Program-made: the position numbers and the translations under genes
In this document: in pieces, positions 688 to 53,822 of the stretch
Layout: each line of letters opens with the position of its first letter
How positions within the stretch are numbered: the stretch's first letter is position 1
Origin: a virus
Direction: 5' to 3' (one strand)
Virus record (IMG/VR): IMGVR_UViG_3300007522_000026
Coordinates: 1-53,822 of that record
Length of the DNA: 53,822 nucleotides
The notes under the pieces: generated by a model
Databases searched by the model: none
What the model saw: only the letters and a program-made list of their open reading frames with translations
What the model was told of the DNA's origin: nothing

Positions 688-2646
688 ATGATCCCGACAA
701 GTAAACCAAAAATCACATCCAACATAGACCAGCTAGAATCACAAGAGTTTAGTATGCTAGTAGGAGAAAAAGCATTCTCCATCCTAGTAGACAGCCTCTA
801 CACTGATAAGGTATTAGCAGCGGTACGAGAACTATGTACTAACGCTGTGGATGCACATCAGGTTGCAGGTAAGCAATCGGAGCCATTTAAGGTTACACTG
901 CCAACCTACTTAGACAACACGTTCTCGGTTCGTGACTATGGTTGTTCTATGGATCATTATACAATCATGAACTTATACAGCAAACTGTTCTGGTCGCCTA
1001 AAGACACAACTAATACACAAGTTGGTTATCTTGGGCTAGGTTCTAAAGCGCCGCTAGCTTACACTGATTCGTTCAGTGTGATCGCTTACCTTAGTGGGAT
1101 TAGGCGAGACTATCTTGTGGGTCTAAACCATGAGCGTATCCCAACTATTACTAAGGTAAATGAGGTGTCTACTTCTGAGCTTGATGGCTTAGAAGTATCA
1201 TTTCCTGTCAAGATGGGTGACTCGGACCTATTTGAGAGAGCAGCCGAGAAAGTGTTTCTTGGTATGGATGTTAAACCAGTATGCAATATTAAAATTTACT
1301 TGCCTGAGCCTAAACTAGAATTTGAGAACTGGAAAATTTACACAGGGGCTCATGGTAATAAGTTCTTCATCAAGCAGGGCTGCGTTCTGTACCCATTCAA
1401 CTTCACCAGTCGCCTCCTCAAGCATTACTCTAGCAATTCGATGGTTATTGAAGTTCCCATCGGCTCGGTTGAGGTTGCAACCTCACGAGAGGCATTATCT
1501 CTAGACGACCGGACTAGAACTTTCATCGAACAATTGACTAAAGAATTAAACTGCTCGGTAGAAAGATACCTTAACGAACAGCTTGCCGCTCAAAAGAATA
1601 CGATTGACGCAGCTATCTTCCTTTACGGTAAGATTCAACCAATATTCGACGAAACTTACACTAAGAATCTTGAGCTCAACTACAAGGGTAAGAAACTCGA
1701 AAGATACATCAAGTTCGATCTAACTATTCCAGTAGAATACTTGAGCAATGGTAAGAGTTGGTTAACCAAGACAACAGTTGCTATAGATGTAAATAATCTT
1801 TCTACGGCCAAGTTTGTGATTCAGAAAGCAGGACAGAAGGTATATCGACGCAAGGCTCGCATCAAGGCATACATGAAAGACCAGCATGGTCCTCAAGGTG
1901 CTCAAATATACTTCTTAGATGGACCTTCCAATAAGGATATTTCCCGTCTACTTAGGTTCTATATTCTACCTAAGAACATTATCCCTATCGAAAAGATCCC
2001 CGATATTGAGACTACAAGTAGCGGCAAAAAGTTAGTAGCTAAAACTGGTCCCTACATTTACATTAAGGATGGACACCAACTTGTTGACAATATGGAAAAT
2101 GAATTTGCGTGGGTTGATATTAACAGAAAGAATGGTGACTTCATTATTGATTATAGCAAGAACAGAATTACTTCATCAAAGGATTGGGGGGCATATACTT
2201 ACAAAGAATTTAACGAGCTGCTACATTATTTTGACATTACTGATAAGCCGATCTATCATCTTACTCCTAGTATGCAGAAAAAGTTTAAGGTTGATGATAG
2301 CAACAAGATTGACACAATCATTAAAGATTGGTTTGATGAGAACAGCCTAAACCTTAAAACTGCATACTTCCTTCATCATTTTGTGTGTGAGCCTATGTTC
2401 CAAAACATTATTGAGGAGAAAATTGCCCCTAAAGGTTATCGTGATTGGGCAGGTAATAAGTCTCTAAGATATATTTGCAGGGCAATCAAAAAGTTTAATG
2501 CTTCACAGGAATCAAAATGGCAGGTTGAGCTTGATAAAGAAATGGAGCTACTCAATAATAAGTATCCAATGATAGGACATTCATCACCTACGACAGAGCA
2601 AAAAATAAATTATGTTAAAATGATGGATGGTCAACAAAATGTATGA
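688..2646 (+). CDS. rIIA: rIIA-like GHKL ATPase-domain protein
   Basis: This 652-residue protein resembles T4 rIIA-type proteins. The N-terminal half shows a GHKL ATP-binding fold: an N-box (RELCTNAVDAH, residues 47-57), a DYGCSM G1-type motif around residue 83, and a GLGSKAP lid-like motif further on. In T4, rIIA and rIIB affect exclusion by lysogens and associate with the membrane; the biochemical role is unsettled and is not inferred here. The start has a clear AAGGAG ribosome site. The rIIB-like gene follows after one small frame, matching the usual rII order. Confidence 0.85.
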   Translation: MIPTSKPKITSNIDQLESQEFSMLVGEKAFSILVDSLYTDKVLAAVRELCTNAVDAHQVAGKQSEPFKVTLPTYLDNTFSVRDYGCSMDHYTIMNLYSKLFWSPKDTTNTQVGYLGLGSKAPLAYTDSFSVIAYLSGIRRDYLVGLNHERIPTITKVNEVSTSELDGLEVSFPVKMGDSDLFERAAEKVFLGMDVKPVCNIKIYLPEPKLEFENWKIYTGAHGNKFFIKQGCVLYPFNFTSRLLKHYSSNSMVIEVPIGSVEVATSREALSLDDRTRTFIEQLTKELNCSVERYLNEQLAAQKNTIDAAIFLYGKIQPIFDETYTKNLELNYKGKKLERYIKFDLTIPVEYLSNGKSWLTKTTVAIDVNNLSTAKFVIQKAGQKVYRRKARIKAYMKDQHGPQGAQIYFLDGPSNKDISRLLRFYILPKNIIPIEKIPDIETTSSGKKLVAKTGPYIYIKDGHQLVDNMENEFAWVDINRKNGDFIIDYSKNRITSSKDWGAYTYKEFNELLHYFDITDKPIYHLTPSMQKKFKVDDSNKIDTIIKDWFDENSLNLKTAYFLHHFVCEPMFQNIIEEKIAPKGYRDWAGNKSLRYICRAIKKFNASQESKWQVELDKEMELLNNKYPMIGHSSPTTEQKINYVKMMDGQQNV

Positions 2647-2776: not shown

Positions 2777-3892
2777 ATGAGCTATCCAATTATCCTTTCA
2801 GAAAACACGCTATCAGTAGTTATCGACAATAAAGTATATCAAGCAGATCGCAGCCACCCCGCATGGGAGGAAATTAAAGCTGCAATCAACGATGACTCAA
2901 CAACAAACGATGAGCTTATCGGCCTCATGTCCCCAGGAGAATATATCCGAAGCACCTTACAGGATTCTTCGACAACTTACATCGACATTCGTGGAGGTAT
3001 ACTATACTATGGTGATGAGCCAGTGCATTCTACACTTGGACTCAAGGTAATCGACATGATCCGAGAAGGATTCGAGATTGACCCGTGGGTCAGGTTTGCG
3101 GAAAATGTTTATGCTAATCCGTTCAAGCAATCACGAGACGAATTGTATACTTTCCTTGAGAAAGCCAACCTACCAATCACCGAAGATGGTTGCTTTATCG
3201 CATACAAGAAGGTCAACTCAGACTACAGGGATGTGTTCAGTAACAAGTTTGACAACTCTATTGGTCTAGTGCTAGAGATGCCACGAGAACTTGTAGACGA
3301 TGATCGCAATAGGACCTGTTCTTATGGTTTCCACTTCTGTTCAGAGAGTTATCTGAAAAACTTCGGTGGTAGTCATGTGATGCTCGTCAAAATCAATCCA
3401 CGAGATGTTGTATCTATTCCTAACGATTATGACTTCGCTAAGGGTCGCACCTGTAAGTATGAGGTCATCGGAGAGATTGAAGAGAATGTCATTGCAGACT
3501 ATACTTGGGATGCAGTGTATATGGACGTTGATGATTCTGAAGAATGGTTGGAAGATAATTCCGGCTGGGCTGTGGAATTATTATTTGATTATGAAGATGC
3601 ACTACAAGATATAGTAGAGCAGGTGCAGGGCGAAAAGAATCTCAACAATGAGAAAAATAAGAAAGGTAATTCAGACAATATGCTAACAAAACTAAAGAAG
3701 AGCGTTACAAGGGGTTCTAAGAAGAGCGTTACAATTAGCACAGAACGTCTAGGGACATTGTCACGAAAGCAATTCAAGGCAGCGGTGCGAGAGCATGGTA
3801 CAATGGCAAACTGGGCGAGAGAGCTTGGTGTGCCATCTTCCACTGTTCGTAACTGGCGAGCTGACCTCTGGGCAAGTGTTCCGGAAATCTGA
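2777..3892 (+). CDS. rIIB: rIIB-like protein with C-terminal helix-turn-helix
   Basis: A 371-residue rIIB-type protein. The central part contains the conserved stretch ITEDGCFIAYKKV (about residues 135-147) and a GFHFCSESYL segment, both seen in phage rIIB homologues. A Lys/Ser-rich linker leads to a C-terminal domain that reads as a DNA-binding helix-turn-helix (MANWARELGVPSSTVRNWR). The start directly follows the small upstream gene. It probably acts with the rIIA-like protein. Confidence 0.85.
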   Translation: MSYPIILSENTLSVVIDNKVYQADRSHPAWEEIKAAINDDSTTNDELIGLMSPGEYIRSTLQDSSTTYIDIRGGILYYGDEPVHSTLGLKVIDMIREGFEIDPWVRFAENVYANPFKQSRDELYTFLEKANLPITEDGCFIAYKKVNSDYRDVFSNKFDNSIGLVLEMPRELVDDDRNRTCSYGFHFCSESYLKNFGGSHVMLVKINPRDVVSIPNDYDFAKGRTCKYEVIGEIEENVIADYTWDAVYMDVDDSEEWLEDNSGWAVELLFDYEDALQDIVEQVQGEKNLNNEKNKKGNSDNMLTKLKKSVTRGSKKSVTISTERLGTLSRKQFKAAVREHGTMANWARELGVPSSTVRNWRADLWASVPEI

Positions 3893-3944: not shown

Positions 3945-4095
3945 TATAACATGGATAAAGAGGATCGTGACTGTGTTCAACCCCGCTAAGCGTGACCGTG
4001 AGAAGGGCTTTGATGAGCGTGGCCTCACCGGCAACGAGGACCTGGAATATCAACGCACGATGCGACAAACACCAACCAACACCCAAGGGAGCAAA

Positions 4096-4341
4096 ATGAT
4101 GGATGAACCACAAAATTTTAGGGGGCAGGATCTACGCTGGCGGGATTTCAGCGGGCAGGATTTGCGCCACGCTGATCTCCGCGACGCGAATCTGCACGGC
4201 GCGAATCTCACCGGCGCTGACCTGCGCTGCGCGAACATCACCGAAGCGCACCTGCGTTGGGCGAGCCTGACCCGCGCGAACCTGACAGGAGCTGATCTCA
4301 CCGGGGTCATCGGATACCAACCACCAAAGGAGCAAAAATGA
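4096..4341 (+). CDS. pentapeptide-repeat protein
   Basis: An 81-residue protein with about twelve consecutive pentapeptides (for example HADLRDANLHGANLTGADLR), enough for roughly three beta-helix coils. The ATG at 4096 is chosen for its AGGGAG ribosome site. An in-frame GTG at 3967 would add 43 residues that do not look like repeats. Its base composition is far more GC-rich than its neighbours, suggesting recent acquisition. Pentapeptide proteins of the Qnr/MfpA type mimic DNA and protect gyrase, but at this length that role is only a possibility. Confidence 0.7.
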   Translation: MMDEPQNFRGQDLRWRDFSGQDLRHADLRDANLHGANLTGADLRCANITEAHLRWASLTRANLTGADLTGVIGYQPPKEQK

Positions 4342-5350: not shown

Positions 5351-5482
5351 ATGGAAATCTTAATACTTGTAACTTTATTTTACTATATTATAAAAGCAAT
5401 TGATAATGTTTACTTACGTTTAGAGCAGAACAAAAGAGATGCTATTCTGGCTAATGCCAGATATGAGATGGAGAATAAATGA
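5351..5482 (+). CDS. small single-pass membrane protein
   Basis: A 43-residue product that begins with a hydrophobic helix (MEILILVTLFYYIIKAI) followed by a charged helical tail. It is probably an inner-membrane micropeptide with the C terminus in the cytoplasm. It overlaps the next gene as ATGA. Function unknown. Confidence 0.5.
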   Translation: MEILILVTLFYYIIKAIDNVYLRLEQNKRDAILANARYEMENK

Positions 5483-6420
5483 CAACTTTTAGTACTTATG
5501 TTGATAAAATAAATGCTATGGATACGCCAATACTTGGTATGCTAGCTTGGTATACTGTACCAACATCAGCAGAAATTAAGCATAAACAATTCATACATCT
5601 TATTGACCAGTATAAAGCCCCTATTGACAGGATCAATATTCCTTCAGCAAATAACGTGTTCAGGAGAGCATGTAGTATTGCAACAATGAAGAAAAAAACT
5701 GGGCCTACAGATGATTCATCATGCAATTACACGATGCGTGACGCTGGTAATGAGCCAAGCTTTATCTTCAAGTGTCTAGTTGAGGAAACGGTGGATAGTA
5801 AGAATCATATTCTTGACCATAGAACCATAGCTGATGTGTCACTCGCAAAGGATACTGCTAAGATGAACTTCGAGTGTAAGATTAGTGATGATGATTTTGC
5901 TTGGGATTCATATAGTGAAGTTAAAGATACGCTTGAAAGCTTCATTAAAAGTAAAAGTTTAATCATGCATGACCTAGTAATTAGGGAGGCTGCTCGTAGA
6001 GCTGTAGAGTATAATCTTCTAGGTGTTAGAGTGCGTCAAGGTGGTGGCGTTTATTTTGTTGCTTTAGACAGGTGTAGGGAACTTGAGTCGATTAGCAATG
6101 TTATCAATTCGATTGGTGCCGCATCATTTGATATACTACCATTAGTTGATGACGATAAGCAGAGAGATATGTTAAGAGTATCCTTTGAGAGCGAGTCAGT
6201 TGGTGAGACTCAAGTACTTATCTCTGAGGCCCGTGAGCTACTCAAGTCTGATAAGATAACGGCCAAGAAGTTTATAGAGATGCAAACCAGATATGCTAAC
6301 CTGAAAGGTAAGATGGCAACGTATTCAGATATTCTTAATGATAATTTAGATAATTCTAAGGAAGCACTGAATATTGCAAGTTCACAGATCAACGCTCTGC
6401 TAGATAGGATGGAAGATTAA
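5479..6420 (+). CDS. phage protein of unknown function, helical C terminus
   Basis: A 313-residue protein without a domain I can name securely. Proteins of this size and position, next to a RuvB-like ATPase, recur in actinophages under DUF labels (DUF6744 is a candidate I cannot verify). The C-terminal 90 residues are helical and likely coiled-coil. A VRQGGGVYFVA segment in the middle suggests a beta-sheet core. It opens the run of overlapping genes that includes RuvB-like, Ku and ligase, so a part in DNA-end metabolism is plausible from context only. Confidence 0.7.
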   Translation: MTTFSTYVDKINAMDTPILGMLAWYTVPTSAEIKHKQFIHLIDQYKAPIDRINIPSANNVFRRACSIATMKKKTGPTDDSSCNYTMRDAGNEPSFIFKCLVEETVDSKNHILDHRTIADVSLAKDTAKMNFECKISDDDFAWDSYSEVKDTLESFIKSKSLIMHDLVIREAARRAVEYNLLGVRVRQGGGVYFVALDRCRELESISNVINSIGAASFDILPLVDDDKQRDMLRVSFESESVGETQVLISEARELLKSDKITAKKFIEMQTRYANLKGKMATYSDILNDNLDNSKEALNIASSQINALLDRMED

Positions 6421-6421
6421 A

Positions 6422-6622
6422 TTGTCCAAAACTTTACACCGATGTAAATCAATTAAGGAATCAGATGAAGGGATCAGGATACAATGTGACCTGTGCAAAT
6501 GGGAGTCAGTTGCTACAGACATTAAATTTGTTCAAGATTTAGTTGACACACACTATCTGAGTATGAAACAATGGCCCTTTGTAGATTATATTCCACCCGA
6601 AGGATGGCCCGAACAACTATGA
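6422..6622 (+). CDS. small zinc-finger-like protein
   Basis: A 66-residue protein starting at TTG one base after the previous stop, with a GGAAG element upstream. CDLCKWES followed by a downstream His (DTHYLSMKQW) suggests a C2H2-like zinc site. It overlaps the RuvB-like gene as ATGA, so the two are probably made together. Confidence 0.6.
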   Translation: MSKTLHRCKSIKESDEGIRIQCDLCKWESVATDIKFVQDLVDTHYLSMKQWPFVDYIPPEGWPEQL

Positions 6623-7527
6623 GTACACTAGTAAACCCAGAAGATAGAAGTCTTAAGCCTCGTTCATGGGATGAGATGATTGGGCAAGATAAACTAAAAT
6701 CAAAGTTACAATTGATTAGTAATCATGCAGCAGTAAACAACGAAAGGTTAGAACCAACTTTGCTGATTGGCCCACCAGGAACAGGAAAATCATCTTTAGC
6801 TGCTCTGGTAGCTCAAGAAGCTGGTCTTAACTTCTTGGATCTTATGATTACGCCAGACTTTAAGATGGCTACAATCAATCGTGTTCTCATGGAGCATCAG
6901 GGATTGTTGTTCTTAGATGAGATTCAGAATATGCAAAAGAAAAGCCAGTATTATATCTATAATGTTCTTCAAGAGAATGAGATACGGCTTGACAACGGTA
7001 AGTGTATTCCTATTGAGAATCAAATCTCTATTGTTGCAGCAACTACCGATCCGCAGAAACTTAATGATGCTTTAGTAACTAGGTTTGACAAGCTACGATT
7101 CGGTGACTACAGTGAAGAAGAGCTTTCAAGGATTGTTGCTATGTTGGCTACACGACTTAAGCTGAAGCACACTAAAGGCCAGTGCGAGGCACTTGGAAGA
7201 GCATCAGCAGGTTCTCCTAGACAGGCCAGACAGCTTGTTAAGATGGCTAATAGATTAGGCAGTATGAGTACTGAAGATATCTTAGATATGTGTGAGATTA
7301 CAGCAGATGGATTAACGGAAGATCATATGGCATACTTGGAATCACTATACAAATTAGGAGGCACTTCGGGAGTTGAGAATCTTTCCAATCATTCATTACG
7401 ATCAAAGGATGAAATATTGAGTATTGAGAAGCTATTAGTTAAACGTGAGTTTGTTGAAATTGCTAAAAAGGGTAGAACACTAATGATGCCAGGTTTGAAG
7501 GCACTCAAGAATGAAAGAAGAATATAA
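6619..7527 (+). CDS. RuvB-like AAA+ ATPase
   Basis: A 302-residue AAA+ protein close to RuvB, the Holliday-junction branch-migration motor. Visible features are Walker A GPPGTGKS (residues 51-58), Walker B LLFLDEI (96-102), sensor 1 IVAATTDP (138-145), an arginine finger in LVTRF (R155), sensor 2 GSPR (198-201), and a C-terminal winged-helix region ending near MMPGLKAL. The N terminus (RPRSWDEMIGQDKLK-like) matches the RuvB entry motif. Cellular RuvB is about 335-345 residues. No RuvA or RuvC is visible in the window. ATG at 6619 is chosen because it overlaps the previous stop; a longer start would lie within the upstream gene. Confidence 0.85.
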   Translation: MSTLVNPEDRSLKPRSWDEMIGQDKLKSKLQLISNHAAVNNERLEPTLLIGPPGTGKSSLAALVAQEAGLNFLDLMITPDFKMATINRVLMEHQGLLFLDEIQNMQKKSQYYIYNVLQENEIRLDNGKCIPIENQISIVAATTDPQKLNDALVTRFDKLRFGDYSEEELSRIVAMLATRLKLKHTKGQCEALGRASAGSPRQARQLVKMANRLGSMSTEDILDMCEITADGLTEDHMAYLESLYKLGGTSGVENLSNHSLRSKDEILSIEKLLVKREFVEIAKKGRTLMMPGLKALKNERRI

Positions 7528-7529
7528 TT

Positions 7530-8339
7530 ATGAGCAACCGAATGACAGTGCGAGCACAATCGTCAGATTTCACAATCCGTTTAGGATCAGCCACTACTAA
7601 TGGTCGTTTGATTCCTATCCGCAAATCAAGAGTTGAGCTATACGGTCCAGAAGCAAAGCTTTGCACACCAACACTCGGCCCAGTCGCTCAAGTGTATCGT
7701 GATAACGACGGTAACATCTGGAACAAAGAGGATCTTGAGCGTGGCTTTCAGCAGAAAGATGGTAGCTTTATTCCCATTAATGCTGATGAGCTTGCTCAGG
7801 CTAAAGAATCTCCTTTGCCTAAGAATGTTCTTAACCTGACAGCGCATCCTATTGAGGATGTTGAGCGTTGGCTGTTCCCTTCGGACAATAATGCCTATGT
7901 GTTTGACACTATGAAGAAAGAGAAGAAGGGTACACCCGTTAAGGAAGATCCTGTAAATGTGCAGTGGCATGACTTTATTCTGACTATCCTCACCGATGGT
8001 AATGTTGCTCTTATAGGTCAGTGCAACTTTCAAGGCAACGAGGGATTGTTTAGATTGCTTAACTATCAAGGTAACCTCGCAATCCAGCGGCAGCTTTATC
8101 CTGCTGAGTTAAATCAGTATGATGCCCGTACTCCTAGCCTTTCTGCTGCTGTTAAAAAGAAGGCTTTGTCTGTGGCTAAGAACATCACTCAAGAATTTGA
8201 TCCAGAGTCTTACCGTAATACCGCAGCAGAACGTATTGCCGCAGTTGAGTCTGGTGAATTCGGCACGGTTTCTTCACCTATTGACGATGATAGCATTGAG
8301 TTAGATATGCTTTCAGCTCTAGATAGCTTTGTTGCCTGA
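7530..8339 (+). CDS. ku: Ku-like DNA end-binding protein
   Basis: A 269-residue protein, close to bacterial Ku in length (M. tuberculosis Ku is 273). The features align in order: an N-terminal beta-strand IRLGSATTNGRLIPI; KEDLERGFQQKDGSFIPI (residues 66-83), matching the 'DLVKGYE..DG.YV' segment; the core TDGNVALIGQCNFQGNEGL (155-173), matching Ku's 'tgkvAigrfvlRgre'; and NLAIQRQLYPAEL (182-194), matching its 'l.lhtLryadEl'. The C-terminal segment (VAKNITQEFDPESYRN, 215-230) matches 'idsmt.eFdPekYkD'. Bacterial Ku rings bind double-strand ends and recruit ligase. Mycobacteriophages Omega and Corndog carry Ku homologues, so there is precedent. It lies three bases after the RuvB-like gene and upstream of a ligase gene. 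Confidence 0.82.
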   Translation: MSNRMTVRAQSSDFTIRLGSATTNGRLIPIRKSRVELYGPEAKLCTPTLGPVAQVYRDNDGNIWNKEDLERGFQQKDGSFIPINADELAQAKESPLPKNVLNLTAHPIEDVERWLFPSDNNAYVFDTMKKEKKGTPVKEDPVNVQWHDFILTILTDGNVALIGQCNFQGNEGLFRLLNYQGNLAIQRQLYPAELNQYDARTPSLSAAVKKKALSVAKNITQEFDPESYRNTAAERIAAVESGEFGTVSSPIDDDSIELDMLSALDSFVA

Positions 8340-8530
8340 TGATTGACCACGAGAAAATCATCCGAGAGCAAGCGTTAGAACAAGCTATGATTGAGGAGGT
8401 TGAGAAACGTCAACGGGATAATGATTCCGTTGATCTTCTAGACCAAGATATAGTATTTGATAATTATGATGGCCTTATGCAATATGAATTAGGAGAAAGT
8501 TTCTCCATCGGTGCAACTAAGTTAGGTTAA
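8339..8530 (+). CDS. small acidic hypothetical protein
   Basis: A 63-residue, charged, mostly helical product that overlaps the Ku stop as TGATG. It could be a Ku-associated small protein, but nothing in the sequence shows this. Confidence 0.55.
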   Translation: MIDHEKIIREQALEQAMIEEVEKRQRDNDSVDLLDQDIVFDNYDGLMQYELGESFSIGATKLG

Positions 8531-8534
8531 CAAT

Positions 8535-8807
8535 ATGAACCACAAAGTAGATATGAATCATAATATTACTGGTAATGATATTACCATACATGCACTAAAT
8601 GTTGATTGGGGGCAGATGGCTAGATCTAAATTGATTCTTCTAGACTTTCTAGATAGCGAAACTCCTAAAGAATTTGCTAATGTTTCTAATAGCAATGATG
8701 GGCGAGACTTAATGGATGGTTTAGTAAACCTTATCGACTGCCTACAAGACCAAGCGGCAGATCAGATTGGTGAAGAAATTATCTTTGGAGGATTTAATTG
8801 TGAGTAA
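8535..8807 (+). CDS. hypothetical protein
   Basis: A 90-residue acidic protein with no recognised family. A second ATG (M7) is an alternative start. Its last codons overlap the GTG start of the next gene by 8 bases. Confidence 0.55.
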   Translation: MNHKVDMNHNITGNDITIHALNVDWGQMARSKLILLDFLDSETPKEFANVSNSNDGRDLMDGLVNLIDCLQDQAADQIGEEIIFGGFNCE

Positions 8808-9150
8808 TTATCCAGATGGTATGAGAGAGTCAGATATCCCAGGATGGTGGGATACAGAAAGCGTTAAAGTTTGTGTCTCAGAAAAACAAGTACATGTTGT
8901 TCCTCTTTCATTGTTTGATTCATTGCAGGAACTATTAATGGAAGTATCAGCAATGAAAGATGCAGAATTTCCTGAAATAAGACCATACCTTAAAGATTTG
9001 TTCAATAGACTTCGAAGCTTATTATCAGAAATTACAATTGGAGGTGAGACTTTGGAATGTGCATTCGATGATGAGGTCATTGTCGATTCGGACGGCTGGG
9101 ATTGCCCGGTATGCGAAACACATTACGACCATCCAGAGTATGAGGGATAA
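8800..9150 (+). CDS. hypothetical protein with C-terminal zinc-knuckle
   Basis: A 116-residue protein. GTG at 8800 is preferred because GGAGG lies eight bases upstream. The C terminus (CPVCETHYDH) is a compact Cys/His cluster likely to bind zinc; the central part is helical. Family unknown. It sits between Ku and ligase. Confidence 0.6.
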   Translation: MSNYPDGMRESDIPGWWDTESVKVCVSEKQVHVVPLSLFDSLQELLMEVSAMKDAEFPEIRPYLKDLFNRLRSLLSEITIGGETLECAFDDEVIVDSDGWDCPVCETHYDHPEYEG

Positions 9151-9341
9151 TGGCAGTTAGAGTAAAATTTTCTGAGCGAGCTTTATTTCCTCTACTAGTT
9201 TCCGCTATCTCACGAACACATGATACAATTGATATGGAAAAACTTTGTGAGCGTATGCAAATGGAAGAGAAAGAAGTAGAAATTATTTTCCATAGGGCTA
9301 ATCTCATCTGGTCAAAATTTAAAGGAGACGAAGATGGATGA
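9150..9341 (+). CDS. small hypothetical protein
   Basis: A 63-residue basic and helical product that overlaps the previous stop by one base (TAATG). The layout (MEKLCERMQMEEKEVEIIFHRA) could be a small helix-turn-helix, but this is weak. Confidence 0.55.
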   Translation: MAVRVKFSERALFPLLVSAISRTHDTIDMEKLCERMQMEEKEVEIIFHRANLIWSKFKGDEDG

Positions 9342-9615
9342 TCCAATGAAAGCATTACATGGCTTAGAAGCAGCCGTTAGCAGGATTTCTAAGCCTTTGG
9401 GGGTTGTCTTAACTAGCTTCCAAGTTACGTTAACAGACAAGAATGTTGATGACATTATCACTTTGGAGTTTGAGGTAGTAAAACCTGAAACTGTTGTTTG
9501 TGAAGAAACTATTGAGCAGAAGAAATATGATATGATGTTTGAAGACATTACAGATACTATTAACCTTTGCCAACCGTCAACTGAGAATATTAAACTTGAG
9601 GAATGGGATGACTAG
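9334..9615 (+). CDS. hypothetical protein
   Basis: A 93-residue acidic protein that overlaps the previous gene by 8 bases (GGAGACG ribosome site within it) and overlaps the ligase GTG start by one base. A likely beta-rich core (VVLTSFQVTLTDKNVDDIITLEFEV is the suggestive stretch; only part is conserved-looking). No family recognised. Confidence 0.55.
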   Translation: MDDPMKALHGLEAAVSRISKPLGVVLTSFQVTLTDKNVDDIITLEFEVVKPETVVCEETIEQKKYDMMFEDITDTINLCQPSTENIKLEEWDD

Positions 9616-10388
9616 TGCAAGCACAATTGCCTAAAGATTGTTCAGATCCAAACATATACTTAGACTCACCCGAATGGGGTATAAGTCAGAAGATTGATGG
9701 TCAAAGAATGGTTTTATCAATTGATTCCGGCAAGGTAACGGGTTATAACCGTAATGGTGTTCAGAGAGATATACCGGTAACTATAAGTAATTACCTTAAG
9801 GATATGCCAATATCCTTAACACTTGATGGCGAGTTGCTTGACAATAAGTATCATATGTTTGATATCATATCTGCTACGATCTGCTCATGGCAATTAGAAA
9901 GGCGCTATCAGCTTGTTTGTGATCTTGCTAAAAGGATGGATTCCAATATTATAAGAAAGGTTAGTATTCATACGCTTAACAAGCGAGAGATATTTGATGA
10001 CCTGTTGCACTCTAAAGCTGAAGGCGTTGTGTTTAAGAAGCTTTCAGCGCCTTACAAGCCAGGCAGAAACAGTAACTTTGTAAAATACAAATTTCTTAAC
10101 GAGGTCGATTGTTATGTAACAGAGCTTGGTTGTGAAAGTAAATCTAATATGGTATTGTCTATGTGGAAAGATAATGAGTTTATCGAAGTTGGTAAGTGTT
10201 CAGCGTTGACAGCAGATGGACCATCTGTTAAAGTGGGGGATGTTGTAACAGTAACATGTCTATATGCAACAGATTCAGATAGGCTATATCATACAGTTAT
10301 GCCACGAATAAGGACAGACAAAGAACCACAAGATTGTGTTATAGGTCAGTTAGAATTATGCCGTACAAACAAAGAGGTTAGGGTTTAA
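9615..10388 (+). CDS. ATP-dependent DNA ligase
   Basis: A 257-residue ligase of the minimal type. The adenylation motif I is KIDGQR (the Lys is the AMP acceptor). LDGEL (motif III), EGVVFKK (motif IV) and NFVKYKF (motif V) follow in the right order, and the last 80 residues fit a small OB-fold. There is no N-terminal DNA-binding domain and no polymerase or nuclease domain of the LigD kind. GTG start in a TAGTG overlap. In this operon the natural partner is the Ku-like protein, giving a two-component end-joining set; it could also seal nicks in replication. Confidence 0.87.
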   Translation: MQAQLPKDCSDPNIYLDSPEWGISQKIDGQRMVLSIDSGKVTGYNRNGVQRDIPVTISNYLKDMPISLTLDGELLDNKYHMFDIISATICSWQLERRYQLVCDLAKRMDSNIIRKVSIHTLNKREIFDDLLHSKAEGVVFKKLSAPYKPGRNSNFVKYKFLNEVDCYVTELGCESKSNMVLSMWKDNEFIEVGKCSALTADGPSVKVGDVVTVTCLYATDSDRLYHTVMPRIRTDKEPQDCVIGQLELCRTNKEVRV

Positions 10389-11578
10389 TGTTAAACGAAA
10401 AATTTCTTAACACAGAACAGTCAATGAAACGTTTCCTATTTGAAAGAGATGATGAGATCCACACATCTATTCTTGCTTTAATTGGCAAGATGCACCATCT
10501 CCAATACGGTGAGCCAGGAGTGGCTAAGAGTTTACTTGTAGATAGCCTATGTGATCATATTAGCGACTTTGGACCGAATGATAAGTTTTCCTACCTGCTT
10601 ACTAAGTTCACGGCAGCGGAAGAAGTTCTAGGTTTCCTAGACTTCTTCGGTCTAACAAAGGATGGTGTGTACCGTAAAGTTACTGACAGGAGATTGCCAA
10701 CAGCTAAGATTGCGTTCCTTGATGAGCTATGTAGATCATCTTCAGCTTTGATTAACTCACTGCTCAGAATTATGAATGAACGTCAGTTCGACAGCGGCGA
10801 AGGGGTTATTAAAGTACCTCTTATCTCTATGTTCACTGCAACAAATAGCCTGCCAGATTCCGCTGACCTAGAAGCTTTAGCTGACCGCTTCCACTTCTGG
10901 CATGAGGTTAAAAGAATTCAAGACCCATCTAACAAAGCAGAACTACTCAGAACACATAACCTTCACGAGTCAGAAGAAATTACTGACACGATCACACTTG
11001 GAGATATTGAAGAAGCGCATCATGAGATCGACTCAGTAGCTATCAGCAACGATCTTATTGAAGGTCTTCTAGACATCCTCGATAAGCTTAATCAGCTAGA
11101 GATTAATGTTAGCGATAGACGTGCAAGGCAAGCTGTCAAAGTTGTTCAGGCAGAGGCATGGTTACAGGGCAGGCAAGAAGCTAAGCTGATTGATTTACTA
11201 CCATTGCAGCATGTGTTCTGGAAGAACCCTGATGATATTGATAAAGTTTATGATGCTGTGTCTAACATTGCTTCGCCGATTGATAAAGAGATTCGTGCTA
11301 TTCGTGCCTCCATCAATGAGATGATGCATAACTTTAACAAGACCATGAAAGACACTCAGGAAGAAGTTGTTATTACTTCTCTTGGAACAGAATGTGTGCG
11401 TAAGCTTAGGTCTGCACAGAAAACTATTAACGATCTAGGTAAGCGTGCCAAGAAAGAAGGCTTGGATATGACTAAGGTTCATGAGCTGAGAGCTTTCACT
11501 GAGCAACAATTTCATATCATTAAGACTCAAGCATTTAGCTTGGAAGAAATTAAAGATGATAATGTTTATGACAACTAA
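10388..11578 (+). CDS. MoxR/RavA-type AAA+ ATPase
   Basis: A 396-residue AAA+ protein. Walker A is GEPGVAKS (residues 41-48), the Ala variant typical of MoxR proteins. Walker B is IAFLDEL (108-114), followed by SALINSLLRIMNER, the MoxR 'sNaLL.iLNEr' region, then sensor 1 FTATNSLP and an arginine finger in ALADRFHFW. A helical C-terminal extension follows. MoxR ATPases act with a VWA protein as a chaperone-like pair (RavA-ViaA, NorQ-NorD), and here a VWA gene follows 28 bases later. The ATG overlaps the ligase stop by one base. Confidence 0.85.
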   Translation: MLNEKFLNTEQSMKRFLFERDDEIHTSILALIGKMHHLQYGEPGVAKSLLVDSLCDHISDFGPNDKFSYLLTKFTAAEEVLGFLDFFGLTKDGVYRKVTDRRLPTAKIAFLDELCRSSSALINSLLRIMNERQFDSGEGVIKVPLISMFTATNSLPDSADLEALADRFHFWHEVKRIQDPSNKAELLRTHNLHESEEITDTITLGDIEEAHHEIDSVAISNDLIEGLLDILDKLNQLEINVSDRRARQAVKVVQAEAWLQGRQEAKLIDLLPLQHVFWKNPDDIDKVYDAVSNIASPIDKEIRAIRASINEMMHNFNKTMKDTQEEVVITSLGTECVRKLRSAQKTINDLGKRAKKEGLDMTKVHELRAFTEQQFHIIKTQAFSLEEIKDDNVYDN

Positions 11579-11606
11579 TAATTGTCACTAATGATAAAGG
11601 AAATTA

Positions 11607-13097
11607 ATGTCTGACCACAAAGATCATTATACTATCCAAGCAGACCAATGGGACTTCAGGGCATCTGAGCGTTCATTCAAAAATAATAGAGAGCTGGCTG
11701 TAGCACAGAAACGTATTGCCAAGAAAGAAACTGGTGCAGAGATTTTCAGAGATTTGTTCCATGCTCTTATTAAAGCTGTGCCGCTACTCAAGAAAGAAGA
11801 AGAGGTTAACGCAAAGTACTCTATCAACTATAAGGTTATGAATGAGATGCTTAACATGGAAGAGTTCCAGACGATGCGTAAAATGTCTGCTGGTGATTCT
11901 GTAGGAACGTCCATAGCTTGTGTTCATCTGGAACCTAAACTTGATATACTTTTTGATAAGTTGAAAAAGCTACAAGATGCTGCTAACCAACTTTCAGATA
12001 AGCAGGAACAGCTTCAGGATGCTCAAGATAAAAAGACTTCTGATGAACTCATAGAAGACATGATGAAAGAAGTTAATGAACTTGAGCGCTCTCTGAGCGA
12101 TGACCTTAATGAGGCTGGCTCAGAGGTTCGTGATGTCATGCAGGAGTCCATGAAGGAGCTAGGTGAACAGGCTGAAGGTGAACAGTTTGCTGAGGGATGG
12201 GGTTTAGGCTCCGGAGAGTTAGCTAGAATGAGTCACATAGAAAGGGTTAGTTTAGCTAAACGACTTTCAACACCAGAGTTTAAACGCATGGCAGAAGTAG
12301 TTGGTAGATTCCAAAACATGGCAACTTCAAATGTCGAAGAAGTTAATGTCAATGCTTACGATGAAATCTATGATATTGAAATGGGTAACGACTGGTCTAG
12401 GTTATTAGGTTCAGAAATGGTTGCGTTCGGTGAGGATATATTATTCTATGAGCAGGCCAAAAAGTATCTTGAGCGCAGCCTAGCCCAGTACGCTATTCGT
12501 GGTATCGAAACAAAAACTAAAGGTAGTATAATCTACTGTTGTGATGGTTCACCTTCAATGAGTGGTGACCGTGAGATATGGGCTAAAGCAATTGGACTAG
12601 CTTTACTTAAAGTTGCTGAAGTACAGAAACGAAAGTTTGTGGCTATACACTTCGGTGGTCCCGGACAGTACCTTCGCATGGAATATGATACTTCAGGATC
12701 ACAAATTGCTGTAACTGTAACAAGGAATAAGAACCATAAGTTCATGTACCGTAAAGAAGGCTTTGAGGCGATCATGGAATTTGCTGAGTTAGGTTATCAA
12801 GGTGGCGGAACAAGCTATGTTGATCCTCTTGAGGAAGCAATTAGCATAATCGAAGAAGAAGCTGGCGATGGTGCGGTAACATCTGATATAATCTTTGCTA
12901 CGGATGATGAGTGCATGGTTCCTAGCTCTTGGGAAAAACGTTTTCTAGCTAGTAAAGAAGAGCTAGGTTTCAAGATGTATTCTTTTGTTATCGGTTCAGC
13001 TAGAGTCAATACTATGAATCGTATATCGGATATTGTTCTTTCACCTAAATCATTATTGGATGGAACAGACTTAGAGAAAATATTTAAAGAACTATAA
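11607..13097 (+). CDS. VWA-domain protein, partner of the MoxR-like ATPase
   Basis: A 496-residue protein. The N-terminal 250 residues are helical, including a coiled-coil-like Gln/Lys/Asp/Glu stretch (about 115-190). The C-terminal VWA domain has an intact MIDAS: DGSPS (D313, S315, S317), T402 in GGGTSYVDP and D433 in ATDDE. This layout, helical front and MIDAS at the end, is that of ViaA/CoxE-type partners of MoxR ATPases. Ribosome site AAAGGAA. Substrate unknown. Confidence 0.83.
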   Translation: MSDHKDHYTIQADQWDFRASERSFKNNRELAVAQKRIAKKETGAEIFRDLFHALIKAVPLLKKEEEVNAKYSINYKVMNEMLNMEEFQTMRKMSAGDSVGTSIACVHLEPKLDILFDKLKKLQDAANQLSDKQEQLQDAQDKKTSDELIEDMMKEVNELERSLSDDLNEAGSEVRDVMQESMKELGEQAEGEQFAEGWGLGSGELARMSHIERVSLAKRLSTPEFKRMAEVVGRFQNMATSNVEEVNVNAYDEIYDIEMGNDWSRLLGSEMVAFGEDILFYEQAKKYLERSLAQYAIRGIETKTKGSIIYCCDGSPSMSGDREIWAKAIGLALLKVAEVQKRKFVAIHFGGPGQYLRMEYDTSGSQIAVTVTRNKNHKFMYRKEGFEAIMEFAELGYQGGGTSYVDPLEEAISIIEEEAGDGAVTSDIIFATDDECMVPSSWEKRFLASKEELGFKMYSFVIGSARVNTMNRISDIVLSPKSLLDGTDLEKIFKEL

Positions 13098-13885: not shown

Positions 13886-14962
13886 ATGGCTAAAAGAATT
13901 TATGAAAATAATACAGTATTAGAAGCAGCTAGAGAAAGAATGTCTTTCATATTTGATGAGTTTGAACGTGTACAAGTTTCAGTATCAGGTGGTAAAGATA
14001 GTACTGTACTGTACCATCTGGCCCTACAGGAAGCCATCCTTAGAGGTAGAAAGCTAGAGGTATTCTGGTTAGATCAAGAGGCAGAATATACAGCCTCAGT
14101 GGATACTGTGAAGCTACAGATGCAACATGAGAACGTAATACCACTGTGGTATCAGGTTCCGGTCTACATGACTAACGCAACAAGCTATTCAAACTACTTC
14201 CTATACGCTTGGGGTAAGGGCGAGCAATGGATGCGTGAGAAAGACCCTATGGCTATTCAAAGCATAGAAGAAGATTATCCTGAAAGATTCTACGAGTTCT
14301 TCCCCTATCTAGAAGAGCAAAATAAAGATGCAGCTTTCCTTGTTGGACTAAGGGCAGAAGAAGGTATCATGAGATACCGAGCCGTTACTAAGAACCCTGG
14401 GTATAAAAATACATACTGGGCAACCACAACCAATGGCGCACACAAGTTCTATCCAATCTATGACTGGGGTTGGAATGATGTGTGGAAATTTGTTTGGGAT
14501 TATAATATTACTTATAACAATATTTATGATAAGATGTTCTGGTCCAACTACAGCATGTATAGTATGCGTGTATCAAACCTTGTTCATGAAAAAAGCTATA
14601 AGTGTCTCATAGATTTACCAAAGTTTGAACCAGAAACATACGATGCATTATGTAAACGGATAGGCGGTATCTCAACTGCTTCAAGGTATGCGAGTGAGAA
14701 GTTAATATTTAGTAATAAGACTTTGCCTTCACATTATGAGAACTGGGAAGAGTTTAGAAACTTCTTGTTTGATAATATCCAAGAAGAAGATCATAAAATA
14801 ATATTTGAGAAGAGATTCTCATCTCAACCTAACGATGAAGAAACATATAAAAAACAGGTAGGACAGTTACTGCTCAATGATTGGGAGAATTCAAAACCAA
14901 TCGCAGCTATAGACATGGAAAGAAAGGAAGAGTTTAAATCAAGATGGATGACAATCTTATAA
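13886..14962 (+). CDS. PAPS-reductase-like PP-loop ATPase (IbrA-like)
   Basis: A 358-residue PP-loop protein. VSVSGGKDST (residues 31-40) is the pyrophosphate-binding loop. LEVFWLDQEAEY and GLRAEEGIMRYR match the phosphoadenosine-phosphosulfate reductase superfamily region that contacts the adenylate. The C-terminal half is unlike true CysH and resembles the IbrA/DUF3440-type branch. Assimilatory sulfate reduction is unlikely: the partner is a ParB-like gene, the two overlap by 19 bases, and the CysH active-site C-terminal ECG(I/L)H is not seen. The likely role is nucleotide-dependent regulation or modification. Confidence 0.78.
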   Translation: MAKRIYENNTVLEAARERMSFIFDEFERVQVSVSGGKDSTVLYHLALQEAILRGRKLEVFWLDQEAEYTASVDTVKLQMQHENVIPLWYQVPVYMTNATSYSNYFLYAWGKGEQWMREKDPMAIQSIEEDYPERFYEFFPYLEEQNKDAAFLVGLRAEEGIMRYRAVTKNPGYKNTYWATTTNGAHKFYPIYDWGWNDVWKFVWDYNITYNNIYDKMFWSNYSMYSMRVSNLVHEKSYKCLIDLPKFEPETYDALCKRIGGISTASRYASEKLIFSNKTLPSHYENWEEFRNFLFDNIQEEDHKIIFEKRFSSQPNDEETYKKQVGQLLLNDWENSKPIAAIDMERKEEFKSRWMTIL

Positions 14963-15447
14963 AGTTTATTTTACCTAAAGAGGTAGGCATTACCGAACTA
15001 CAAGCAAACGATTATAACCCTAATCGTATGCCATCAGATGAGATGAGCCTATTAAGAAACTGTATTGATAGATTTGGTTTCTTGTTCCCAATTGTTACTA
15101 CTTGGGATGAAGAACTTATGAAGTATAGGATTATTGATGGCTACCATCGTTATGAAACTCTTATTAGAATGGGTTCGCAGAAAGCTCTAATTGTTGATCT
15201 AGAAATATCATATCATGATGCCGTACAGCTTACTGTTCTCATGAATAGAATCAAGGGCCTACATCAGGTTGAAAAGATGAGTGATCTAATCGTGAAGCTT
15301 TCTGATCTTGGTTTAGAAGATGATGAGATTTCACAGAATCTTGGCATGGAAGAAGAGGAACTTATTAGACTTAAGCAGCAGCTTGGTATCTCTCATGTAT
15401 TCAAGGATAGAGAATATTCTAACTCTTGGAGTGCAGAAATAAGATAA
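14944..15447 (+). CDS. ParB-like nuclease-domain protein (IbrB-like)
   Basis: A 167-residue ParB/Srx-fold protein. Visible are LQANDYNPNRMP (about residues 19-30), the ParB box-like YRIIDGYHRYE (61-71), and a second helical domain (SDLGLEDDEISQNLGMEEEEL) shaped like the ParB helix-turn-helix. IbrB-type ParB proteins pair with IbrA-type PP-loop proteins. The start lies 19 bases inside the upstream gene, supporting co-translation. The frame ends in TAA but stays open beyond it into the gene at 15562. Confidence 0.8.
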   Translation: MDDNLIKFILPKEVGITELQANDYNPNRMPSDEMSLLRNCIDRFGFLFPIVTTWDEELMKYRIIDGYHRYETLIRMGSQKALIVDLEISYHDAVQLTVLMNRIKGLHQVEKMSDLIVKLSDLGLEDDEISQNLGMEEEELIRLKQQLGISHVFKDREYSNSWSAEIR

Positions 15448-16239: not shown

Positions 16240-16285
16240 AATAAAAATAGGCCGTAGCCCTCATGGGTTACGGCCTATTTTTATT
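16240..16285. terminator. bidirectional intrinsic terminator
   Basis: A 21-bp inverted repeat (AATAAAAATAGGCCGTAGCCC ... GGGTTACGGCCTATTTTTATT in outline) with one G-T mismatch and a 4-base loop. The stem ends in A-runs on one side and T-runs on the other, so it ends transcripts from both directions. It lies exactly where the plus-strand and minus-strand arms converge. Confidence 0.92.
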
Positions 16286-22400: not shown

Positions 22401-22907
22401 ATTAGTTTTAGCCGCAAGATAATTGTTATGCAGCAAAGGCTGCAGCACAGGACCACCAAGACAACCAGAAGCAACAATGATGCCCTCAGAGTGTGACTCT
22501 AGAAAAGACCAGTCGGTTCTAGGTTTCCTATACAAACCATTTATATAAGCATCACTAGAAATCTTTAGAAGGTTATGATAACCCTCATTGTTCTCAGCGA
22601 ATACCGAAAGATGATAATAGCTTTTATTAGAACCATCAATATCACCATTACTATCAGACTGCTTAACACCAGTTCTCTCAAGACGGTCATCAGCAAAGTA
22701 TGCTTCCATGCCAAGAATAGGCTTAACATCCCGCTTCTTACATTCCTTATAAAAATCTATAATACCAGAAACAGTACCATGATCAGATATACCAATACCT
22801 GGCATACCGAGTTCTTTGGCACGAGAAACAAGACCACTAATCTTAGATGCACCATCCAACTTAGAATATGCTGTGTGCGTATGTAAAGATACGAATTGTT
22901 TACTCAC
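19470..22907 (-). CDS. dnaE: DNA polymerase III alpha subunit
   Basis: An 1145-residue C-family replicase. N-terminal PHP domain with intact metal-site signatures (HTHTAYS, H9/H11; SDHGT, D42/H43), suggesting active PHP proofreading. Polymerase core: GPGRGSACGSIVSYCL, then PDVDLDWEQRH with two catalytic Asp, and LKMDFLGLKTLDVL with the third. Further on a helix-hairpin-helix region and an OB-fold (VLCIISSIEVKFT ... MEVVAFPRNWKKV). Close to bacterial DnaE in length (about 1160). GTG start overlapping the upstream gene by 8 bases. It is the phage's own replicase. Confidence 0.95.
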   Translation of the reverse strand: MSKQFVSLHTHTAYSKLDGASKISGLVSRAKELGMPGIGISDHGTVSGIIDFYKECKKRDVKPILGMEAYFADDRLERTGVKQSDSNGDIDGSNKSYYHLSVFAENNEGYHNLLKISSDAYINGLYRKPRTDWSFLESHSEGIIVASGCLGGPVLQPLLHNNYLAAKTNAARFQDIVGKDNFFIELMDHDLPEQRRTNPLLLQIAREIGAPTVLTQDTHYTHKEDCSSHEVLLCCQTGAKLSDPKRFKFHNHEYYLKPSEYMRSLGDWADEACDNTLLIAERACVDIDFKTQHLPVFDVPEGFDGDVSYLRHLTYDGAKARYGELNQEIIDRLEYELSVINSMGVSSYFLILWDIMLFAQSEGILSGPGRGSACGSIVSYCLRITHVEPLEYGLIFERFLNPSRITMPDVDLDWEQRHRETIINYTSSKYGSDYVAQIATFGTMKGRTAIRDTVRILDLPFSLGGKISEAMPKAISGVDIPLWACLEKDPKFEAGYHNAQTLRDMYISDSEVKEVIDVALGLEGLIRQSGIHAAGVVIGDRPLIELVPLETRKDGSILTQWDKKAVEDVGLLKMDFLGLKTLDVLADCIKIVGITLEDIPIDDIATYEMLKLGETVGCFQIESSGMRDLLRNLRPTNIRDISAVLALYRPGPMAQNWHNDYADRKNGRQAAVPFHEDARDILAETYQIPLYQEQLMKISQVFAGYSMAEADNLRKIIGRKETKAMTDERGKFVNGCVGKGYDPDFSEDLFDKIDGFSLYGFSSLHSMPYAHITFWTAYLKMHYPREFMACLCSSVMGELDKVALYLYEARRMGLNVHPPDVNTSNSDFSVTDDGIRIGLRNVRNIGIDLSEMICSERPYKTLYDFSRRINPSTTAMQSLALSGALDAYGTRLGIHSVSVDLLKSTRNDNIKNNINQNSLFDNTELVDIKIPEQEFGLHEMLAKEKEYIGMYVSGHPLSDYTSKMAKHTLSDLPTMGQEKGIKVLCIISSIEVKFTKKHESMAIIQVEDQTGSMEVVAFPRNWKKVNTLKAGDVTHMWIRPGIDYREERHYTLASLETVDSNVVQIDNSKTFGVYLPLKFSSDPTFMSKLKGVFLTNYGSMPVSCYISRSATIDLGNVYSIESTDTLKSSIKSLFIEFNDKKGNII

Positions 22908-23259
22908 TTAATGGCTTTTCATTAACCACATCGTAATGAGGGCGATTATCATTACCAATATCCCTAATCTGAAAAGAAAGCAAACATAGGCAATGCCATG
23001 CAGCGTGACTCCAATGTGATAAACCTGACTCAGGATCAATATCCTCACCAGCCCAAGCAAGATTAGCATGTCTTTGCATGGCGTCATAAGCCAAAGAGTA
23101 ATCAAAGCCTCTGAGATAGTTATATCTAGCATATTTATCCAAACCATAACCAGCGACCTCACCTAAAGCCAACATAGCTAGAGGATCAAGAGCAGAAATC
23201 TGAGATGGTTTATTACACTTTGCGCCACCCGTATTGGGATCAACATGTCTAACTTCCAT
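22900..23259 (-). CDS. dATP/dGTP diphosphohydrolase-like protein
   Basis: A 119-residue protein that resembles the phage dGTP_diPhyd_N/MazZ-type family: ISALDPLAMLALGEVAGYG, then KYARYNYLRGFDYSLAYDAMQRHANLA in outline and GLSHWSHAAWHCLCLL. These enzymes hydrolyse dGTP or dATP to the monophosphate. In Z-genome phages the partner is PurZ, which is not seen here, so a role in the nucleotide pool is more likely. It lies directly upstream of dnaE and overlaps it. Confidence 0.72.
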   Translation of the reverse strand: MEVRHVDPNTGGAKCNKPSQISALDPLAMLALGEVAGYGLDKYARYNYLRGFDYSLAYDAMQRHANLAWAGEDIDPESGLSHWSHAAWHCLCLLSFQIRDIGNDNRPHYDVVNEKPLSE

Positions 23260-52936: not shown

Positions 52937-53822
52937 GTTGCCCTCAAAAATATTATCGGCGGTTGTGTTGCGTTTACCGTGCCGGGTGATGCGGTGCCCG
53001 GCAAAACCCCGGTCACCGAGTTTTGAAATTTGCCTCCTGTGGCGATGTTCGCAGCGTCAGGCACGCCGATGGTTGGGGCGAAGCAGGTGAACGTGGGTGA
53101 GCCTGAAGTGATTTGCGCTACAGCTGCAAGCCACCAGATGCCAGCTGTTAGCTGCTGGGAGATTGTCACGGCTTTAAACGCTGCGGCGGTGCTTAGATCA
53201 ACGGTCCCCGCGTCCAGCAGAAGCGTTGCTGGCAAGTCGCTGGAGTTTGTGTATATTCCGAGCCGGACGACAGAGCTTGCGCCTGCGGATGTTGCAGCGT
53301 GGTTGATTGAGATGCGGTCAAAAGTTGTTGTGCGTGATACAAGGAACGGAACAAAAATCAGTCGATTATTTGTGACCGTTGATGCGCCACCACCGGCTGT
53401 GGCTGTGGCTGTGTATTGGCTGGAAACATGCAGTGCGGGCGAAGCGCCTGTAGCACCTGTAGTTCCTGTAGCACCTGTAGCACCAACACCTGTAGCACCT
53501 GTAGTTCCTGTAGCACCTGTAGCACCAACACCTGTAGCACCTGTAGTTCCTGTAGCGCCTGTAGCACCTGTAGTTCCTGTAGCACCAACACCTGTAGCAC
53601 CTGTAGTTCCTGTAGCACCTGTAGCACCAACACCTGTAGCACCTGTAGTTCCTGTAACACCTGTAGTTCCTGTAGCACCTGTAGCACCAACACCTGTAGC
53701 ACCTGTAGTTCCTGTAGCACCTGTAGCACCAACACCTGTAGCACCTGTAGTTCCTGTAGCACCTGTAGCACCAACACCTGTAGCACCTGTAGTTCCTGTA
53801 ACACCTGTAGTTCCTGTAGCAC
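52933..53822 (-). CDS. collagen-like tail fibre, C-terminal part (5' end outside window)
   Basis: The minus-strand frame that ends at 52933 stays open for 295 codons to the window edge. Its first 120 visible residues are Gly-X-Y-type repeats (GAT, GTT) interrupted at fixed points by Gly-Val. A globular C-terminal domain of about 175 residues follows ([19 protein letters not shown] ... [15 protein letters not shown] ... [11 protein letters not shown]-like strands). This is the layout of trimeric phage fibres, with the C-terminal domain binding the receptor. GC-rich, unlike most of the genome. Confidence 0.78.
53449..53822. repeat. 42-bp tandem repeat array coding for collagen-like repeats
   Basis: Near-identical units with outline GTAGCACCTGTAGTTCCTGT + AGCACCTGTAGCACCAACACCT, some with a shorter variant carrying GTAACACCT. 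On the minus strand each unit codes for [14 protein letters not shown]. The array continues beyond the window. Confidence 0.88.

Follow-up and report, generated by a model that had tools for sequence, protein, structure and literature searches.

Can a virus carry a DNA end-joining system of its own, with both a protein that recognizes the ends and a ligase that seals them? Ku proteins are known from mycobacteriophages, in which joining has been proposed to proceed through the host LigD (PMC4351075, PMC7719229). In open-access full texts, phage Ku is described together with host LigD and Mu Gam together with a host ligase, and phages with Ku have been counted; neither a phage Ku-ligase pair nor viral WGR ligases turned up in these open-access texts, an absence that is no proof for the literature at large. 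A preliminary description of an IMG/VR virus record (IMGVR_UViG_3300007522_000026) had proposed a set of this kind, made up of Ku and a small ATP-dependent ligase. We evaluated the proposal on the whole 53.8-kb record (positions 1 to 53,822), referred to here as the window.

The Ku and ligase genes share one gene cluster

The window record is a fragment, because its right end sits inside a collagen-like repeat. This 9/42/102-base repeat (53443 to 53822) is cut by the contig end, which is therefore most likely an assembly break and not a genome end. The window encodes rIIA-like (688 to 2646, plus strand; phrog_612, E = 3.3e-101) and rIIB-like (2777 to 3892, plus strand; phrog_609, E = 1.2e-68) proteins, a DnaE-type polymerase, a primase-helicase, UvsX, and an endolysin. 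The window proteins scanned included no recognizable terminase, portal, or capsid protein, and pattern scans based on the ligase, on MoxR, or on the polymerase alone found no close relatives of the virus. A pentapeptide-repeat protein (3967 to 4341; PF00805, E = 4.6e-18) is encoded just downstream of rIIB. Next to the DnaE-type polymerase gene is a sequence for the N-terminal domain of a dATP/dGTP diphosphohydrolase (22900 to 23259, minus strand; PF18909, E = 6e-25). Enzymes of this kind are found in phages whose adenine is modified; the window open reading frames (ORFs) that were scanned included no PurZ.

Both genes of interest belong to a single, nearly gap-free plus-strand cluster that extends from position 5479 to roughly 15450, in which neighboring genes are no more than 28 bases apart and several start and stop codons overlap by 1 base. 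Near its head is a DUF6744 protein (5479 to 6420; PF20529, E = 1.5e-25), and directly upstream of Ku is a RuvB/clamp-loader-like AAA+ ATPase (6571 to 7527; PF05496, E = 4.2e-18; phrog_168, E = 6.1e-19). The coordinates first given for the two genes were right: 7530 to 8339 encodes the 269-residue Ku homolog, and 9615 to 10388, with a GTG start, encodes the 257-residue ligase. Exactly five small ORFs separate them, as had been described. The first four, of 63 (8339 to 8530, overlapping the Ku stop by 1 base), 90 (8535 to 8807), 127 (8767 to 9150, a later true start being possible), and 63 (9150 to 9341) residues, have no family match; the fifth, of 93 residues (9334 to 9615), overlaps the ligase start by 1 base and has no WGR match. 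The ligase stop in turn overlaps by 1 base a MoxR/RavA-like AAA+ ATPase gene (10388 to 11578; PF20030, E = 1.5e-39), which is followed by the gene for its vWA/ViaA-like partner (11607 to 13097; phrog_24053, E = 2.3e-45; NF008230, E = 2e-12) and by a PAPS-reductase-like gene that overlaps a ParB-like gene (13886 to 15447). All of these lie on the plus strand, as does a predicted, strong terminator-like hairpin with a 20-pair stem downstream of the cluster (16241 to 16284).

Moorella phage MTATph1 (13364 to 17555 of its record) encodes DUF6744, a MoxR ATPase, and a vWA protein ordered as at window positions 5479 to 6420 and 10388 to 13097, with 23 to 33% identity, and has no Ku, RuvB-like, or ligase genes between them. 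An assignment of Ku to a MoxR system was dropped on the strength of this Ku-less arrangement. DUF6744, MoxR, and vWA appear instead to be a conserved module in their own right, with Ku and ligase placed within it.

A highly diverged Ku of bacterial type

A Pfam search with the 269-residue protein gave no match, PF02735 included; tblastn against 50,697 phage records returned nothing even at an E value of ≤10, and pattern scans for relatives in IMG/VR and GTDB genomes found none. Its sole NCBIfam match was TIGR02772, Ku_bact (E = 2.7e-7), at 30 bits, which is below the equivalog cutoff of 150 bits. PHROGs gave a subthreshold colinear match to "Ku-like DNA end binding" (E = 0.21), and the only PDB sequence matches, both weak (E = 0.6), were two bacterial Ku sequences. 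A profile of 13 phage and plasmid Ku sequences, the window Ku excluded, matched the protein with an E value of 4.8e-7 at 21.0 bits; this is well above chance, because the highest score among 2,000 shuffles of this protein was 10.1 bits and that among the other window proteins was 4.8 bits. With hhalign, the same profile aligned to residues 50 to 236 (93.8%, E = 1.7e-7). The protein is also colinear with the Ku of mycobacteriophage Firecracker over residues 69 to 268 (21% identity over 200 residues). Two segments had been quoted as Ku-like in the preliminary description, and both do align with the profile: the core segment NVALIGQCNFQGNEG with "kvaiaklvlkgrerl" and QEFDPESYRN with "adfdpkeyeDry". 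Distant homology to bacterial Ku is thus clear from these comparisons, at scores below the curated cutoff, and the protein is, as judged from its sequence, a highly diverged Ku of bacterial type, with a core at about residues 50 to 240 and a minimal C-terminal region.

Structure prediction pointed toward Ku at low confidence. AlphaFold from the single sequence was uninformative (pLDDT 34), and a model guided by 26 aligned viral Ku proteins was of low confidence (pLDDT 53, TM 0.2). Ku structures nevertheless filled the whole top of the Foldseek list for the latter model, with the Bacillus subtilis Ku core first (probability 0.99), followed by bacterial and then human structures. This model is not independent support, because the input alignment itself consists of Ku proteins. 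An alternative explanation would be that the protein is not Ku and that the match reflects chance or merely a shared beta-barrel, which would be compatible with the missing Pfam match, the lack of close relatives, the subthreshold NCBIfam score, and the single-sequence model. We regard it as very improbable in view of a colinear match of about 200 residues that scores far above 2,000 shuffles, of Ku as the sole NCBIfam family and sole PDB match, and of a C-terminal motif that is in place. Because divergence is so extreme (tree branch length, 9.9), whether the protein has retained Ku function is uncertain.

Bacterial Ku proteins combine a conserved minimal C-terminal helix with a variable basic tail. 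Recruitment of LigD has been reported for the helix, probably through its packing onto the ligase domain (PMC13201618), and the minimal C terminus of Mycobacterium tuberculosis Ku is enough to stimulate ligation (PMC9638933). The window Ku ends in ELDMLSALDSFVA, which lies where the helix is expected and fits the consensus VvDLMaALxxSv. Against a C-terminal helix profile built from 33 other Ku proteins, ELDMLSALDSFV (residues 257 to 268; plus strand, 8298 to 8333) ranked 11th of the 16,124 12-mers in window proteins. The minimal helix is thus present, and the lysine-rich basic extended tail is absent from the protein.

A stand-alone ligase of a WGR family

The product of 9615 to 10388 is, by its sequence, a minimal ATP-dependent DNA ligase with a complete core, consisting of a nucleotidyltransferase domain and a short OB domain. 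It matches PF01068 above the cutoff (E = 4.6e-10; 39.9 bits, cutoff 26.2) and phrog_114 (E = 1.2e-20). Motifs I (KIDGQR), III (LDGEL), IV (EGVVFKK), and V (VKYKF), on which its initial identification rested, are all present, together with IIIa (FDI) and VI (RIRTD). Its best NCBIfam model is NHEJ_ligase_lig, TIGR02779 (E = 4.5e-18), although under the cutoff: the LigD models TIGR02776 and TIGR02779 give 47.9 and 65.5 bits versus cutoffs of 373.2 and 227.75. The ligase and the other window proteins scanned showed no POL or PE domain.

In the ligase tree, however, the protein falls in a different, viral/plasmid clade (support, 100/96) whose members have a short OB domain and mostly an N-terminal WGR domain. 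The WGR domain binds DNA and is familiar from PARP proteins. The WGR ligases of Tunturiibacter phage Tunturi_5 and of plasmid pJCM12272 (Mycolicibacterium alvei) share with the window ligase this clade, the motif spacing, the short OB domain, and 25 to 34% identity; unlike them, the window ligase adjoins Ku and lacks WGR, which is absent from all window ORFs scanned.

In light of these features, the pair would be a variant of bacterial nonhomologous end joining (NHEJ) that is viral and in which a stand-alone ligase replaces LigD. It shares with the bacterial system (Ku plus LigD) the Ku core, the minimal C-terminal helix, and an ATP-dependent ligase that, among NCBIfam models, matches the NHEJ ligase domain best; it differs in that the ligase stands alone, at 257 residues with a short OB domain and without POL/PE, and in that Ku and ligase alike are viral and strongly diverged. 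Mycobacteriophage Ku proteins (Omega, Corndog, and Firecracker; phrog_4873) are likewise phage encoded, with genome-end joining proposed, but are only about 21% identical to the window Ku. The expectation that Ku mycobacteriophages lack a ligase of their own held in the three tested, as Firecracker, Baka, and Lucky2013 have no PF01068 ligase. Mu Gam is a phage DNA-end-binding protein described as a Ku homolog, and we liken it to the window Ku by description only; unlike the latter, it is reported to work with the Escherichia coli ligase, as stated in PMC8136500 citing Bhattacharyya 2018.

The mycobacteriophage precedent (PMC4351075, PMC7719229) raises the possibility that the window Ku, too, uses host LigD and that the phage ligase is unrelated to Ku. 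The three phages without a PF01068 ligase are consistent with such a mode, but in the window a ligase is encoded five small genes downstream of Ku, and those phages lack one. Bacterial Ku-ligase pairs, moreover, show cognate specificity (PMC1378119, PMC13201618). We therefore consider use of host LigD improbable.

Ku-ligase linkage recurs in other viral contigs

Seven other viral contigs were found to carry Ku together with a small ligase, which belongs to the window family in four of them and is a different small ligase in three. A Ku-based search of IMG/VR yielded 65 loci, with a PF01068 ligase anywhere on the contig in 4 of the 47 records tested; a search from the window-type ligase yielded 44 loci, 3 of which had Ku. 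Many of the contigs in this sample are fragments, detection methods were not alike across collections, and the viral status of IMG/VR contigs rests mainly on the collection itself. In all eight contigs, the window included, Ku and ligase lie on the same strand less than 5 kb apart. The product of the chances of this under random placement is 10^-9.8, a figure that is overstated because phage DNA-metabolism genes cluster in general. By comparison, among the 50,697 phage records, Ku was detectable by tblastn in 82, of which 81 were mycobacteriophages. The MT838252 "phage" record, which has Ku, was not counted as a phage, its ORFs resembling a piece of an actinobacterial chromosome.

The largest case is a contig of about 300 kb (L111; 299,875 bases) in which rIIA, rIIB, Ku, small genes, and ligase are ordered as in the window (tblastn of window rIIA, 34% identity, E = 1e-38; of rIIB, 43%, E = 1e-58) and whose Ku scores over the Pfam cutoff. 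Contig L081, found through its Ku, has a ligase of the window family, and L141, which has a WGR-family ligase, encodes the Ku that, of those compared by BLASTP, is nearest to the window Ku. Individual loci showed further peculiarities. The L111 ligase (9845 to 10738) has KRNGKR as motif I, with Asn for the Asp of KxDGxR, and a protein encoded close to Ku and ligase (11445 to 12470) combines an HNH with an RNA ligase domain in one chain. The frame of the WGR-type ligase of L141 (2323 to 3447) is apparently broken past motif III, through sequence error or gene decay. In prophage-like L073 (2060 to 3636), genes for a 271-residue Ku and a 254-residue ligase overlap by 4 bases beside presumed lysis genes. 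In L082 (6163 to 12238), a different pair of MoxR (CbbQ/NorQ type) and vWA (CoxE-like) genes lies directly upstream of Ku and ligase, the second case, besides the window, of MoxR-vWA adjoining Ku-ligase.

The Ku-ligase set thus recurs in viruses, because the pair is linked in seven other viral contigs, and some viruses probably carry their own end-joining kit, because unrelated viruses, one of about 300 kb, hold the same pair. The uniqueness implied by the preliminary description does not stand. Its notion of a set gained comparative support from the shared cluster, the seven linked contigs, the gene order of the 300-kb contig, and the retained helix.

Ku and ligase could also be neighbors rather than partners, with the ligase sealing Okazaki nicks for the viral replisome and Ku capping ends against host nucleases. 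This is the main rival reading. A DnaE-type polymerase, a primase-helicase, UvsX, and a RuvB/clamp-loader-like ATPase are all encoded by the virus itself; the ligase family is mostly found without Ku, including in Micrococcus phage Kurnik, Tunturi_5, phiLM21, Jenst, and three plasmids, all with window-family ligases; and end protection against host nucleases has been proposed for Mu Gam (PMC1378119). Tight linkage of Ku and small ligase across unrelated viral contigs and the ligase-recruiting helix retained in the window Ku weigh on the other side, and we hold separate roles to be rather unlikely.

Pairing with Ku and absence of WGR

In the Ku tree, ligase-linked Ku proteins were clustered (3 changes versus 7.4 in shuffles), and those of L081, L141, and L111, all with window-family ligases, group together (84/87); the window branch is too long for placement. 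A single clade of Ku-linked ligases was rejected, as these are scattered through the ligase clade; pairing has therefore been gained or lost repeatedly. Three WGR-family ligases, those of the window, L081, and L111, lie beside Ku and lack WGR. WGR was missing from 3 of 5 Ku-linked ligases versus 3 of 31 others (P = 0.024), a small comparison found after looking, and the apparent excess among Ku-linked ligases is suggestive.

A proposed model for virus-borne end joining

We favor, with moderate confidence, the model that the cluster encodes a two-protein end-joining system in which Ku recruits the stand-alone ligase. Ku would bind double-stranded DNA ends and bring them together, its core and short C-terminal helix would recruit the ligase, and the ligase would seal the synapsed nicks with ATP. 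End recognition is assigned to Ku because the ligase belongs to a WGR family and has no WGR domain. A physical partnership of the two proteins is likely on these comparative grounds, and we also infer joining activity and a use in break repair or genome-end joining, the substrate most likely being the virus's own broken or linear DNA. Counting against the model, ligases of this family probably also work without Ku, because 41 of the 44 contigs, many of them fragments, show none.

In M. tuberculosis, the LigD ligase domain alone seals nicks only, and Ku also uses the POL domain (PMC9638933). The lack of POL and PE among the window proteins scanned counts against the two-protein model, as does the Ku frame of L111 (6763 to 7557), which stops just before the minimal C-terminal helix through true truncation or sequence error.

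A broader hypothesis, which we advance tentatively as possible but doubtful, is that of a viral NHEJ lineage in which Ku replaced WGR as the end recognizer, giving autonomous, host-independent joining in several unrelated large viruses. The window pair would provide a minimal ATP-driven system in which to study end joining, and it would allow a natural comparison of WGR with Ku as modules for end recognition on one ligase fold. If the recurrent viral Ku-ligase module is real, some viruses would join DNA ends alone, even in hosts that lack NHEJ, which would matter for genome circularization, for how viruses survive restriction or CRISPR cleavage, and for illegitimate recombination.
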